NCBI GenBank assembly: GCA_902786515.1 | Contig: CADADA010000002.1 | Span: forward strand, 1-64,000 | DNA length: 64,000 nt | Direction: 5' to 3' | DNA from: an uncultured Lachnospiraceae bacterium | GTDB taxonomy: Bacteria > Bacillota > Clostridia > Lachnospirales > Lachnospiraceae | Part shown: positions 58,651 through 64,000 of the stretch, piece after piece | How the letters are laid out: each line of letters starts with the position of its first letter | Numbering within the stretch: the first letter of the stretch is position 1 | Made by a program: the position numbers and the translations under genes | The notes under the pieces: model-generated | Databases searched by the model: none | Seen by the model: the letters and a program-made list of their open reading frames with translations, nothing else | What the model was told of the DNA's origin: nothing

Positions 58651-58703
58651 ACGTATGATTCTACTCAAAAATTTTAATAATAATTGATTAAATGGAGGAA
58701 ACA

Positions 58704-59729
58704 ATGAAAATAACTTATACAAAACTAATGAATATAGTTGCGATTATAATAATCGGATTATTGATTACAGCTAGTGGCTGTAATGGAATTGAACACAAGG
58801 AAGATAATAAAAAAGATACCGTTATACATAATGAATCAGAAATTGATTACTCGGATACATCAAATTGGGCTTATTATGGGGTTGGAGACAATAAAAAAGC
58901 AGATTTGTTTTTAGTATGTCCAACAGTTGATATGAACGATGAATATAACATGTCTATGACAGATACAGATACCAAAGAAAGTTTTTTGGGAGCATTAAAT
59001 ATGGAACGGGGTATTTATGAGGAAGACTGTAGAATGTATGCTCCATACTACAGACAGGCGGCTATGAAAGTGTATGGTCTTGAACGTGAGGAATGGGAGC
59101 AATATATGGAGGCAGCATATGATGACGTGTCAGAGGCTTTTTCGTGGTATTTAAAAAATGAAAACCAGGGAAGACCGATAATTCTTGCAGGTTTTTCGCA
59201 GGGAGCGGATATGTGTTACCGACTCCTTGAAGAATATTTTGGAGACGAGGAACTGTATGATAAGCTTATATCAGTTTATGCAATAGGATGGCCTTGTACG
59301 GAAGATGTGGTAAAAAAATATCCACAAATAAAACCGGCCGGGGCATCAGATGATACAGGTGTTGTAATTAGTTTTGACTGCGAGTCGGAGGATGTAGAAA
59401 GTACATTTATAAATGAGGCCGGTCAGAAGTCTTTTTCGATTAATCCTCTGAACTGGAAGACAGATGGGACAATCGCGGAAAAAACTGAAAACAAGGGGGC
59501 ATGCTTCACGGATTATAACGGTGATATAGTGTCGGAAACAAAAAATCTGTGTGGCTGTTATATTGATGAGAACAGAGGCGTTTTAAAAGTTACGGATATT
59601 GATAAGAGTGATTATAAAGCAATTGTTCCGGGATTGCCGGAAGGTTCATATCATGTTTATGATTATCAGTTCTTTTTCCGTAATTTGCAGGAAAATGTAA
59701 AAATGCGCATTGATAAATATCTGGAATAA
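58704..59729 (+). CDS. DUF3089 alpha/beta-hydrolase lipoprotein
   Basis: This is a 341-residue exported protein. The N-terminus has Lys residues, a hydrophobic core and ITASGC, so a Cys at about residue 25 is a candidate lipid attachment site. The DUF3089 domain is an alpha/beta-hydrolase fold; GFSQGADM holds the probable nucleophile Ser in GxSxG form, and SYHVYDYQFFF near the end would supply the His. The substrate is unknown. ATG 58704 has GGAGGA upstream. It may be a separate unit from the operon that follows 22 bases later. Confidence 0.8.
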   Translation: MKITYTKLMNIVAIIIIGLLITASGCNGIEHKEDNKKDTVIHNESEIDYSDTSNWAYYGVGDNKKADLFLVCPTVDMNDEYNMSMTDTDTKESFLGALNMERGIYEEDCRMYAPYYRQAAMKVYGLEREEWEQYMEAAYDDVSEAFSWYLKNENQGRPIILAGFSQGADMCYRLLEEYFGDEELYDKLISVYAIGWPCTEDVVKKYPQIKPAGASDDTGVVISFDCESEDVESTFINEAGQKSFSINPLNWKTDGTIAEKTENKGACFTDYNGDIVSETKNLCGCYIDENRGVLKVTDIDKSDYKAIVPGLPEGSYHVYDYQFFFRNLQENVKMRIDKYLE

Positions 59730-59751: not shown

Positions 59752-60627
59752 ATGGAATATAAAAAAATCGAAATATCTCACAGACAACAGATTGAACAAA
59801 TTAGAAAAAAAGCCGGCAATATATTATTGTCACACTCGTTTTATACATTGTTTTTGTGGCAGGAGACAATGAAGCTGTCCATATATCTTGAAGAAGATTT
59901 TTTTGTTGTCAAATATGGACTGATGGGAGAAGGCAGCTATTTTTGCCCGTGTGGCAATAAAGAAAAGATTCTGAGCTTTATACAGACACATTGTGAAAAT
60001 GAAGAACTAAGACTGTTCTATATTGATGAAACAAGCAAAGAATTGATAGAAGAAAGGTTTCAGGACCTTTTTAAATTCGAATATGACAGAGGAAGCTGTG
60101 AATACATTTACGAAAGACAGGAACATATTTTAAAGCAGGGGAAAAATTATCAAAGGATAAGGCGGGAAATCAATCATCTTGCATCAAATTATACGCTTCG
60201 TACAGAGATTCTGACAAAGAAGAATTTATCTGTCAGCAGGATTGTAGTTGAAGGGTGGAATAAAAATCATATAGAAGAAAAAAGTAACATGACAATGGAA
60301 GATATATCAGTTGCTGAGAGTGCAATAAAGAATTTTTCAGAGTTAGGACTTTTGGGTGTATTGGTCTATGTGGACGAAAAACCTATGGCAACAGCTATTG
60401 GTTGTGAAATTACGAATGATACCTATGGGATTCAGGTTGCTAAGATGTGCGAAAAAAAAGAAGGCTTGATGTTTTACCTGTTAGAGCAGATGTTTAAGGT
60501 GATTTCAAATCAATATACGTATGTTAATGGTGATGATGATATGAATATAGAGGGAATCAGGATACATAAGCAAAAAATGAAGCCTGTACGGATGAATGAA
60601 GTCTGGAAGGTTGAATCGAGGTTATAA
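59752..60627 (+). CDS. DUF2156 (phosphatidylglycerol lysyltransferase-like) protein
   Basis: This is a 291-residue soluble acyltransferase-like protein. The pattern LLSHSFYTLFLWQETMKLSIY at the start (quoted in part: SHSFYTLFLWQ), then FCPCG, and RIRREINHLA fits DUF2156, the GNAT-type fold of the MprF catalytic domain. No membrane helices are present, so it differs from full MprF. A possible role is transfer of an amino acid or acyl group. ATG 59752 is chosen with a weak GGGA site; alternative in-frame ATGs lie upstream. Confidence 0.75.
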   Translation: MEYKKIEISHRQQIEQIRKKAGNILLSHSFYTLFLWQETMKLSIYLEEDFFVVKYGLMGEGSYFCPCGNKEKILSFIQTHCENEELRLFYIDETSKELIEERFQDLFKFEYDRGSCEYIYERQEHILKQGKNYQRIRREINHLASNYTLRTEILTKKNLSVSRIVVEGWNKNHIEEKSNMTMEDISVAESAIKNFSELGLLGVLVYVDEKPMATAIGCEITNDTYGIQVAKMCEKKEGLMFYLLEQMFKVISNQYTYVNGDDDMNIEGIRIHKQKMKPVRMNEVWKVESRL

Positions 60628-60629
60628 AA

Positions 60630-62372
60630 GTGAAGAATCAGTTTATGAAAAAAATGTTCTGGCAATTGATGGGACCGTCCATTTTGGCAGCGATTGGTTT
60701 AGCAATTGCAAATATAGCGGATTCACTTGTGGTTGGAATCAGTACGGGAAGTGTAGGTCTGGCTACAATAGCTATAACGGCTCCGATATATATGGTCAAT
60801 GCAGTGTTTTACATGGGACTTGGAGTTGGAGGTTCCGTTGAATTTGCAAGACTTACAGGTGAAGGAAAAATAAGTGAAGCAAGGAAGATTTTTAATATGA
60901 CTATGCTGGTATTATTCTGTATAGGAGTAATTTTTTCATTCACCGGCGTTTTCTTTACAAAACAGGTTTTGTGGGTACTGGGTACTACACCGGGCGATGG
61001 AAAGTTATATCAGTTGTCATATCAATACGCACGAATTTTGCTGGTTTGTGCACCGGTGTTTTTTATTAATACACCGTTTTGTATATTTATCAGAAATGAT
61101 GATAATCCAAAATTATCAGGTATAGGATTTGCGATAGGTAATGTTGTTGATGTAGTGTTGAATTTCATACTTGTTCTGGGAATTAAGACAGGTGTGGCAG
61201 GAAGTATATGGGCTACTGTTATAGGACAGATGTTGTCTATGCTGATTTTATCTGTTCACTTGATTAGCAGGGAAAAACATATAATTAAACTTGCCTTGAC
61301 AGTTCCGGATATAAAAAGAATTATCAAAATATTAAATAGTGGTCTGGCGACCTCAAGCCAGTATATTATGCAATTTGTTTTTATAATGATAGTCAATCAC
61401 ATACTGTATAACAGACAGGGAAGTACCGGAGTGGCAGTGTTTGATGTTGTTTTAAATGTGTCGTATGTGGGACTCCTGTTTTTTTATGCGGCAGGTGATT
61501 CGTTGCAGCCGCTTGCAAGTACATTCCATGGAGAAAGAAATATTGATGCACAGAAGATGAGCTTTAGAATGTCGTTGTTTTATGGGCTGATTCTTGGAAG
61601 TATTCTTTTAATGACGATTATTATCGGAGCTGAGCAGGTATGTGGAATATTCGGACTTGAAAGTAAAGAAGAGATAAGACTCGGAGCAGCAGCAGTCAGA
61701 TTGTATTGTGCGGGAGGAGTTTTTGCCGGTGCAAACATTATAGCAGCCGCATACTATCAGTCTGTTGAAGAATTAAAAAAAGCATATCTGATATCGTTTT
61801 TAAGAGGATTGGCGTTGCTATTGTATTTTACTGTTATCTGTATCAATTTATCGACAAGTGGATTTTTCATGCTGTTCCCGTTGACAGAAGCAGGATGCCT
61901 TATAATATTTTTGCTTGTTCGCAGGATGCCTTTTTTGCAGAGCTCAGAGCAACTTCCGAAAGATGACAGAATCTATAGTATGGTTCTGGAAAAAAATGAA
62001 AACAATATGGGACAGCTTATAGAAAATATCGAAGCCTTTTGCGAATCATTTAATGCGACCGCAAAACAAAATTATTACGTGACGGTTACAGCAGAGGAGA
62101 TTTGCTCTGCGATTATAGATAATGCGACGGCAAAAGAAGATGATTCAATAAGTATTTTCCTTACAATCATTGCAGAATATAATGGGGATTTCCGCTTATG
62201 TATCAGGGATAATGCCTTAGCTTTTAATCCGTTTGAATTAGAGGCGGGAAAAGTAGAAGAAGATGATGACAGTGAGCTTGGGGGACTTGGAATCTTTATC
62301 GTTAAGCAAAAGGCAAAAAAATTTTACTATCGCAGGTATTTGAATTTTAACACGTTAAATATATTGGTGTAG
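60630..62372 (+). CDS. MATE-type transporter fused to a C-terminal HATPase (anti-sigma-type) domain
   Basis: Residues 1-440 form a 12-helix MATE/MOP-type exporter (FWQLMGPSILAAIGLAIANI, and so on). Residues about 450-580 form a GHKL ATPase of the RsbW/SpoIIAB type: N-box EEICSAIIDNA, G1-like RDNALAFNPFE and G2-like GGLGIFIVKQ. The G1 box reads DNA where active proteins usually read DxG, so ATP binding may be weakened. The start is GTG 60630 with GAGG upstream. It lies 2 bases after the DUF2156 gene and 8 bases before the GNAT gene, so it sits in an operon. Confidence 0.85.
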   Translation: MKNQFMKKMFWQLMGPSILAAIGLAIANIADSLVVGISTGSVGLATIAITAPIYMVNAVFYMGLGVGGSVEFARLTGEGKISEARKIFNMTMLVLFCIGVIFSFTGVFFTKQVLWVLGTTPGDGKLYQLSYQYARILLVCAPVFFINTPFCIFIRNDDNPKLSGIGFAIGNVVDVVLNFILVLGIKTGVAGSIWATVIGQMLSMLILSVHLISREKHIIKLALTVPDIKRIIKILNSGLATSSQYIMQFVFIMIVNHILYNRQGSTGVAVFDVVLNVSYVGLLFFYAAGDSLQPLASTFHGERNIDAQKMSFRMSLFYGLILGSILLMTIIIGAEQVCGIFGLESKEEIRLGAAAVRLYCAGGVFAGANIIAAAYYQSVEELKKAYLISFLRGLALLLYFTVICINLSTSGFFMLFPLTEAGCLIIFLLVRRMPFLQSSEQLPKDDRIYSMVLEKNENNMGQLIENIEAFCESFNATAKQNYYVTVTAEEICSAIIDNATAKEDDSISIFLTIIAEYNGDFRLCIRDNALAFNPFELEAGKVEEDDDSELGGLGIFIVKQKAKKFYYRRYLNFNTLNILV

Positions 62373-62380
62373 GTGAGGAT

Positions 62381-63232
62381 ATGGAATTTAAGTGGATTAC
62401 CGATTGGAAAAGCAATGCGGTTCAGAGTGGGTTAAAGAAAGTATGGATGGAGTGTTTTAATGACACACAGACCTATATCGATTTTTTCTTTGAAAATGCA
62501 CCTGAAAATATTCAGGTGATTGCCGGTTTTGAAAATGAAATGATTATATCTGCATTTTATCTTTTTCCATGTCAGGTAAAATGGAAAGAATCGGCAGGAA
62601 CGGGAGAGCAGCATACAAAAAAAGCATATTATCTATATGCGGGAGGTGTGTTGCGTGACTATAGGGGAAATAAAGTGTTTTCCGGAATGTATCAGGAAAT
62701 ATTCAAAAAGGCGGAGTATGAGAGTGCGCATATTATATTATATGCTTTGCCGGAGATGAGACCGTTTTATGAAAAAAAAGGACTTATGTATTATTATGAT
62801 AGTAATGAGATTTCATTTGCATTAAAAAATGATGAGCAATGTCTGCCGGAAAGAGAAGAGTTGGAAGCGGAAACGTATGAGATAATGCGTAACCGGCGAT
62901 TTGATAAAGAATCTTTTGTTGTATGGGATAAAGAGATGCTTGGGTACTGTTTAAAGGAAAAACGATTCTGTGGTGGATTTTGTGATATTTTAAAAATAGA
63001 AAACCAGCAATTTGCAATAATAGGAGAAATAAAAGATGAAGTAATGCATGTTGAGGAAACGACGATTCCCTTGGAGTTACTTAAACTATATCAGAGCAGT
63101 ATTTTGAACCTGTATAAAGTATCACAGATGAAGGTAAGAATACAGACAGCGAAAAATGAAGGAAAGCGTATTAATGCCGGAATGGGGGATGTACCGGTAG
63201 CATCCCTTTGGCTGTCCTTGACTTTACAATAG
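62381..63232 (+). CDS. GNAT-family acetyltransferase-like protein
   Basis: This is a 283-residue protein. The N-terminal half fits the GNAT fold: YLYAGGVLRDYRGNKVFSGMY with the acetyl-CoA-binding turn, and ALPEMRPFYEKKGLMYYY. A second domain of about 120 residues follows, giving an Eis-like two-domain layout. The substrate cannot be told. It has a GGTGAGGAT ribosome site and lies 8 bases after the MATE fusion and 28 before the HAMP sensor. Confidence 0.75.
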   Translation: MEFKWITDWKSNAVQSGLKKVWMECFNDTQTYIDFFFENAPENIQVIAGFENEMIISAFYLFPCQVKWKESAGTGEQHTKKAYYLYAGGVLRDYRGNKVFSGMYQEIFKKAEYESAHIILYALPEMRPFYEKKGLMYYYDSNEISFALKNDEQCLPEREELEAETYEIMRNRRFDKESFVVWDKEMLGYCLKEKRFCGGFCDILKIENQQFAIIGEIKDEVMHVEETTIPLELLKLYQSSILNLYKVSQMKVRIQTAKNEGKRINAGMGDVPVASLWLSLTLQ

Positions 63233-63260
63233 AAAAAATTAGGAAGAGAGGAAAAACAAT

Positions 63261-64000
63261 ATGAAGATAAAGATGTCATTGATAACAAAAATGGTGATAA
63301 TGATTATATCAGCATCACTTTTATCAGCTGTAACTTCAGTATACATCAGTTATCGTACATATTCGAATACTATAGACAAGTACTATAAAGAAACTATTAC
63401 GAATGTAGCTGAGACTGCCGCATCCATGATGGACAGCGAGATTATCGGTGATTATGCTGATAAACGTGAAATGGATGATGAGTATGAAGGGATGTTATCC
63501 ATTCTTAAAAAAATTACAAATCAAAATGATATAGAATATCTGTATATAGAAGTAATCAGAGGAGATAAGGCGATAGCCATTATGGACGCTGATGAAGAAA
63601 ATCCGATGGATTTCAGAGAAGAGTTTGATGTGTCGGAAGGAGCGGATACAAGTAAACTTGAGGATGGAATTCCTGCATTTATCAGTAATGAAGAGGGTGT
63701 AGGATGGATGTGTTCAGTATTTCAGCCAATAAAGGATTCGGATGGAAATACAGTGGCTTTAGTCGGAGCTGACCTTTCAATGAATCAGGTTATGGGAGAA
63801 AGGCATCAATTTCTTAATATAGTTTTGATAGTAATACTTATAGCGGCATTTATATCGACAATAAGTATGGTATTATACACGAGAAATATGGTGACACGTC
63901 CTATTAAAAGATTAGCTGAAGCAACGAGAAACTTCATCTCTGATAAACAGAAAAATGAAGAAAAACAAAAAGAGTCACCGATTGAAAAATTACAGATACT
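63261..64000 (+). CDS. HAMP-domain membrane sensor, 5' part (truncated by window end)
   Basis: The open frame continues to the last base (about 246 residues seen). A first membrane helix (about 8-30), an extracytoplasmic Cache-like sensory domain (about 31-180, ending in VALVGADLSMNQVM) and a second helix (about 185-206) are followed by a HAMP start (NMVTRPIKRLAEATRNF). The output domain lies beyond the window. Given the operon, a PP2C/SpoIIE-type phosphatase is one possibility; a chemoreceptor, kinase or cyclase is equally possible. A GAGAGGAAAAACAAT site precedes the ATG. Confidence 0.75.
   Translation, partial: MKIKMSLITKMVIMIISASLLSAVTSVYISYRTYSNTIDKYYKETITNVAETAASMMDSEIIGDYADKREMDDEYEGMLSILKKITNQNDIEYLYIEVIRGDKAIAIMDADEENPMDFREEFDVSEGADTSKLEDGIPAFISNEEGVGWMCSVFQPIKDSDGNTVALVGADLSMNQVMGERHQFLNIVLIVILIAAFISTISMVLYTRNMVTRPIKRLAEATRNFISDKQKNEEKQKESPIEKLQI

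Follow-up and report, generated by a model that had tools for sequence, protein, structure and literature searches.

The best-known role of partner switching is to release sigma factors; a few Proteobacteria use it to control diguanylate cyclases. The sigma-B and sigma-F switches of Bacillus subtilis (RsbU-RsbV-RsbW and SpoIIE-SpoIIAA-SpoIIAB) are built from a sensor PP2C phosphatase, a STAS protein, and a HATPase_c_2 kinase. In SiaABCD and HptB-HsbR-HsbA-HsbD of Pseudomonas aeruginosa and in BgrSTUWV of Sinorhizobium meliloti, a PP2C phosphatase and an RsbW-type kinase likewise set the phosphorylation of a STAS or STAS-like protein, and the output is an enzyme instead of a sigma factor. The enzyme is modulated directly by SiaC in its unphosphorylated form or by the STAS protein HsbA or BgrV, and direct control by a switch is established for the diguanylate cyclases SiaD, HsbD, and BgrR (PMC8457831). 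Here we describe a conserved cassette with components of this kind that lies at the end of a 64,000-nucleotide window (positions 1 to 64,000 of contig CADADA010000002.1, hereafter C2) from the 3.2 Mb genome of a Lachnospira-like bacterium. Its central gene encodes a MATE transporter with a degenerate kinase domain of the RsbW/SpoIIAB type fused to its C terminus, and this transporter, rather than a diguanylate cyclase, is the proposed output. In contrast to the sigma-B and sigma-F switches, the cassette is without a sigma factor and adds a transporter-bound pseudokinase and biosynthetic enzymes. A partner-switch domain on the cytoplasmic side of a transporter is also found in the SLC26/SulP anion transporters (PMC8256260); however, the fused domain there is STAS itself, whereas here it is the RsbW-type fold, the partner of STAS, and the transporter belongs to an unrelated superfamily.

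In the AlphaFold model of the fusion protein, which has a predicted local distance difference test (pLDDT) score of 89.9, the chain adopts a MATE fold and then a compact alpha/beta domain whose elements come in the order typical of GHKL proteins. The MATE part is related to the multidrug transporters PfMATE and DinF-BH in both fold (Foldseek E value of 7e-14) and sequence (1e-19). An acidic residue in its first transmembrane helix, D31, aligns with D41 of PfMATE and is invariant in relatives; because this Asp has been kept throughout, the transporter part is probably functional. The solved MATE structures that were matched lack a GHKL tail, and their chains align only to query residues 6-441. 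An earlier interpretation of this DNA, made from its letters alone (the sequence-only reading), had described the protein as a MATE transporter with an RsbW/SpoIIAB-type tail. This description was borne out: both MatE and HATPase_c_2 were matched in 53/53 aligned relatives, and the closest solved relatives of the tail were SpoIIAB structures, albeit as weak matches of the tail profile (E about 0.01).

The nucleotide-binding motifs of the tail were compared with those of the stand-alone RsbW proteins encoded in the cassette loci. None of the 69 fused tails has the Mg-binding Asn of the N-box (the residue there is A, V, T, S, L, or I), whereas all 58 stand-alone RsbW proteins do. Similarly, the G1 Gly was replaced by Ala in 66/69 tails and was Gly in 62/62 stand-alone RsbW proteins, and the first G2 Gly was replaced in 65/68 tails but kept in 61/62 RsbW proteins. 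By these motifs, the tail has kept the fold of the kinase but is degenerate in catalysis, having lost the residues for Mg-ATP. The loss was probably one ancestral event and was maintained thereafter. On the basis of the motif loss, the tail was rejected as an active kinase, although it retains the N-box Glu. Throughout the clade the Mg-binding Asn and the G1 Gly have been lost, which makes it unlikely that the tail, first described as an anti-sigma-type domain, itself works as an anti-sigma kinase; without catalytic residues and a linked sigma factor, it does not belong to the anti-sigma family by function.

A second class of MATE-HATPase fusions (L038, L039, L040, and L124:5834-7609) was also encountered, in which the N-box Asn and the G1 Gly are retained. 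These fusions adjoin STAS genes (not seen in L040) and nonribosomal peptide synthetase or adenylation genes, a context that suggests a peptide product exported under control of a switch.

Homologues of the fusion were searched for among named genomes with five fused proteins from different genera as seeds, and 71 loci were found, 65 of which, all in Clostridia, carry the tail. The gene order STAS, formyltransferase, DUF2156, MATE-tail, sensor-SpoIIE, RsbW is strongly conserved and recurs in Lachnospiraceae, Oscillospiraceae, and Christensenellales-type genomes. Dereplication at 80% identity left 45 groups. A SpoIIE gene lay at most 6 kb downstream of the fusion in 35 of the 36 dereplicated loci with enough sequence. 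The remaining partners were counted where at least 5 kb of sequence was available to either side, which left 28 dereplicated loci: RsbW was near the fusion in 23, STAS in 15, DUF2156 (upstream of the fusion) in 19, and formyltransferase in 15, with one or other of the last two in 26. By comparison, none of the SpoIIE, STAS, RsbW, DUF2156, or formyltransferase genes was found in the flanks, examined up to 10 kb on each side, of 29 control loci with an unfused MATE gene, 24 of which came from genomes of the same family. With a SpoIIE neighbor in 35/36 fusion loci versus 0/29 unfused MATE loci, the arrangement is far beyond chance. Thus, the neighborhood pointed out in the sequence-only reading is conserved across relatives, and its proposal of a membrane transporter within a partner-switching operon is upheld by the STAS and RsbW genes that adjoin the fusion in them.

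Gene content and gene fusions within these loci bear on the enzymes of the cassette. Formyltransferase and DUF2156 are fused in loci L081, L099, and L108, which points to a shared pathway. Comparison of neighborhoods showed that in the lineage of the window organism a GNAT gene occupies the slot held by the formyltransferase in most relatives. The DUF2156 protein is aminoacyltransferase-like and has an LPG_synthase_C domain. MprF-type function, in which an aminoacyl group is moved from tRNA to a lipid that is then flipped, may be a candidate role; the flippase would here be of an unrelated fold. In many loci (e.g., L077), SpoIIE and RsbW are a single polypeptide, and this single-chain sensor-phosphatase-kinase resembles the fused RsbU-RsbW protein Rv1364c of Mycobacterium tuberculosis; in the window organism, however, phosphatase and kinase have a gene each and are accompanied by a linked transporter. 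Two further associations were observed near the cassette. In L092, L093, L099, and L119, the MATE fusion and SpoIIE are separated by a gene of about 786 codons, which in L093 encodes a LuxR/MalT-type regulator. L069, L070, and L073 have a STAS domain joined to an APH-type phosphotransferase (domains verified with Pfam for L070), forming a STAS-linked small-molecule kinase.

The last gene of the window was predicted in the sequence-only reading to be a two-helix HAMP sensor that supplies the phosphatase. The continuation of the sequence past position 64000 revealed the expected SpoIIE/PP2C end. The AlphaFold model of this protein also contains two transmembrane helices, placed around an alpha/beta sensor domain and followed by long helices ahead of the PP2C domain. 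Pfam called no HAMP domain in the window protein, and in the relative L077 the match (4e-4) fell under the cut-off. In RsbU, a helical linker ahead of the PP2C domain controls the phosphatase (PMC12143880), and the helices in the model liken the cassette phosphatase to enzymes of this type. The motifs GGDFYD, DVSGKG, TDG, and FDD are conserved in 24 homologues, with invariant metal-ligand Asp residues, and the fold of the PP2C domain matches the phosphatase domains of RssB, SiaA, and RsbU, that of SiaA being among the closest solved folds. A Ser at the position of SpoIIAA S58 is the phospho-acceptor in 51/51 cassette STAS proteins. Judged by these residues, the catalytic motifs of both the phosphatase and RsbW are intact, and STAS has a phosphorylatable Ser.

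We favor a partner switch in which the transporter is the output and not the sensor. The sensor-SpoIIE protein would detect an extracytoplasmic signal via its two-helix sensor domain and, through the helical linker, would dephosphorylate the small STAS protein, which the separate, catalytically intact RsbW would rephosphorylate. The MATE tail, a dead copy of RsbW, would offer a docking site for unphosphorylated STAS, since it has retained the fold and lost the Mg/ATP chemistry. The transporter with its dead kinase copy is the only part of the cassette without an assigned role, and a STAS receptor is therefore the simplest role for the tail. Docking would alter transport by the MATE part, which would export or flip the product of the DUF2156 and formyl- or acetyltransferase enzymes. 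Our guess from the gene content is that the substrate is a lipid or small molecule modified by these enzymes. We put the probability that the dead-kinase tail binds STAS in its unphosphorylated form and that this binding gates transport at roughly 0.55, where binding, gating, and substrate are what we infer. For the proposal that a complete STAS/RsbW/SpoIIE module directly targets a MATE exporter or flippase, with the dead RsbW copy of the latter as the STAS receptor, such that an extracytoplasmic signal would switch transport of the cassette product without transcription, we consider the chances to be even.

Several observations weigh against the transporter as output of the switch. No STAS gene was found within 10 kb of the fusion in about half of the loci. 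When the genome of the window organism was searched family by family, neither STAS nor RsbW adjoined the module at the window edge. The STAS and RsbW genes of contig C2 lie on the same strand as the SpoIIE gene, approximately 19 kb (C2:83779-84078) and 27 kb (C2:91907-92350) past it, and this STAS is a divergent one. The STAS of another contig, C26, resembles the cassette STAS more than the C2 protein does, and the partner STAS in this organism may thus be either candidate. In addition, the 69 tails do not count as independent losses, given their probable single origin, and the tails all have the N-box Glu, which serves SpoIIAB as catalytic base, and may therefore keep some nucleotide role. 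The C26 STAS belongs to a second STAS/RsbW pair (C26:26965-30145, L064) that is without a phosphatase or sigma factor and lies near a paralogue of the DUF3089 gene found in the window.

The main competing explanation turns on dimerization. RsbW/SpoIIAB-type proteins form homodimers, and the tail is a recognizable homologue of the cassette RsbW, which is close to the fusion in most of the dereplicated loci (23/28). A heterodimer of tail and RsbW could then tether or tune the kinase at the membrane, in which case the transporter would set kinase activity and the real output would lie elsewhere. However, the gene to which RsbW is fused or translationally adjacent is often SpoIIE and not MATE, and the cassette lacks a sigma factor or other downstream target; we regard this explanation as unlikely. 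The absence of a sigma factor from the cassette bears equally on the direction of signaling favored in the sequence-only reading, in which MATE responds to a drug or to export load and passes the signal through its tail to a partner switch that acts on a sigma factor. The tail does have the fold of the anti-sigma family, and the genome encodes seven sigma-70 region 2 genes above the cut-off, with partners identified for only some. Nonetheless, the kinase motifs of the tail are lost, the phosphatase has an extracytoplasmic sensor domain of its own, an active RsbW is separately encoded, and among the RsbW-like genes of the genome only SpoIIAB adjoins a sigma gene. These features make the MATE protein less likely as sensor than as output, and signaling in that direction seems rather improbable.

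The remaining explanation concerns the surroundings of the STAS and RsbW genes on contig C2, both of which are enclosed by a locus resembling a type IV secretion system (T4SS). This T4SS-like locus (C2:64936 to about 98700; L061/L062) contains VirB4, VirD4, pilin, and VirB6-like genes and encodes very long secreted and cytoplasmic proteins; core genes flank it, with alaS upstream and proB, mutS, and mutL downstream. An integrative and conjugative element was considered for this locus and seems less likely, since it lies between core genes and no relaxase or integrase was found among the genes scanned with Pfam, which were those up to 98.7 kb except for one of 366 codons. A T4SS-like module (VirB4, pilin, and a large lipoprotein) directly adjoins the cassette in Hungatella hathewayi (L078/L033/L165), L072, and L089, and the pilin alone stands beside it in L108. 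Since module and cassette are side by side in these distantly related genomes, they may act together. Partner switches that control secretion are known, as exemplified by BtrU/V/W of Bordetella, and the switch described here might mainly control the enclosing T4SS-like locus, with the MATE cassette as a passenger or second output. The position of STAS and RsbW in this genome and the flanking loci in Hungatella, L072, L089, and, for the pilin, L108 are consistent with such a role, but no T4SS-like gene was found in the examined flanks of roughly 40 of the 45 cassette clusters, and we give this explanation only a slim chance.

Within the window, the DUF2156, MATE, GNAT, and sensor genes all lie on the plus strand with intergenic gaps of 2, 8, and 28 bases, in agreement with the sequence-only reading. 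The grouping of these four genes is real, but that reading overlooked DUF2156 and the formyltransferase or GNAT as fixed members of the cassette. It also recognized the DUF2156 gene correctly and placed its start at 59752, which is an internal ATG of an open reading frame that is open from 59710. The positions and domains of the features are collected in the table. A locus of an uncultured Lachnospira sp. (L066) encodes a protein 99% identical to its counterpart here.

Table. Cassette features at the end of the window, with window positions unless contig C2 is named.
Feature	Position	Strand	Domains and remarks
LPG_synthase_C/DUF2156 protein, 305 amino acids	59710-60627	+	PF09924, 5e-20; closest solved relative 2hqy, 5e-21; fixed cassette member
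MATE protein fused to degenerate RsbW/SpoIIAB-type HATPase tail, 580 amino acids	60630-62372	+	MatE, 5e-28; HATPase_c_2, 4e-9, residues 458-569
C-terminal tail of the MATE protein, residues about 440-580	61947-62369	+	GHKL fold; lacks N-box Asn (EEICSAI) and G1 Gly (RDNALA)
GNAT acetyltransferase, 283 amino acids	62381-63232	+	Acetyltransf_9, PF13527, 1.6e-8
Sensor-SpoIIE phosphatase, 527 amino acids, cut by the window edge	63261-64000, continues to C2:64844	+	SpoIIE/PP2C, PF07228, 3e-46

Upstream, a gene for a lipase-like DUF3089 protein (window 58692-59729) overlaps the start of the DUF2156 open reading frame. It was considered as a part of the cassette and rejected, as it is missing at this place in the 99% identical relative L066 and L121 is the only other cassette locus in which it was found. 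Because it is absent from the same place in L066, its presence in the window reflects a recent gain or loss.

Each component of the cassette is known from other systems. A search of open-access papers turned up no account of the fusion, of the cassette, or of this combination of components, a result that is not proof of novelty.

If the proposed switch is correct, partner switching would also serve the post-translational control of export, and its target would be a transporter with a pseudokinase receptor. The presence of a kinase and a pseudokinase in one operon offers a clean handle for separating binding from catalysis. For the common gut Clostridia that carry it, a previously unannotated cassette for biosynthesis and export would gain a testable regulator.

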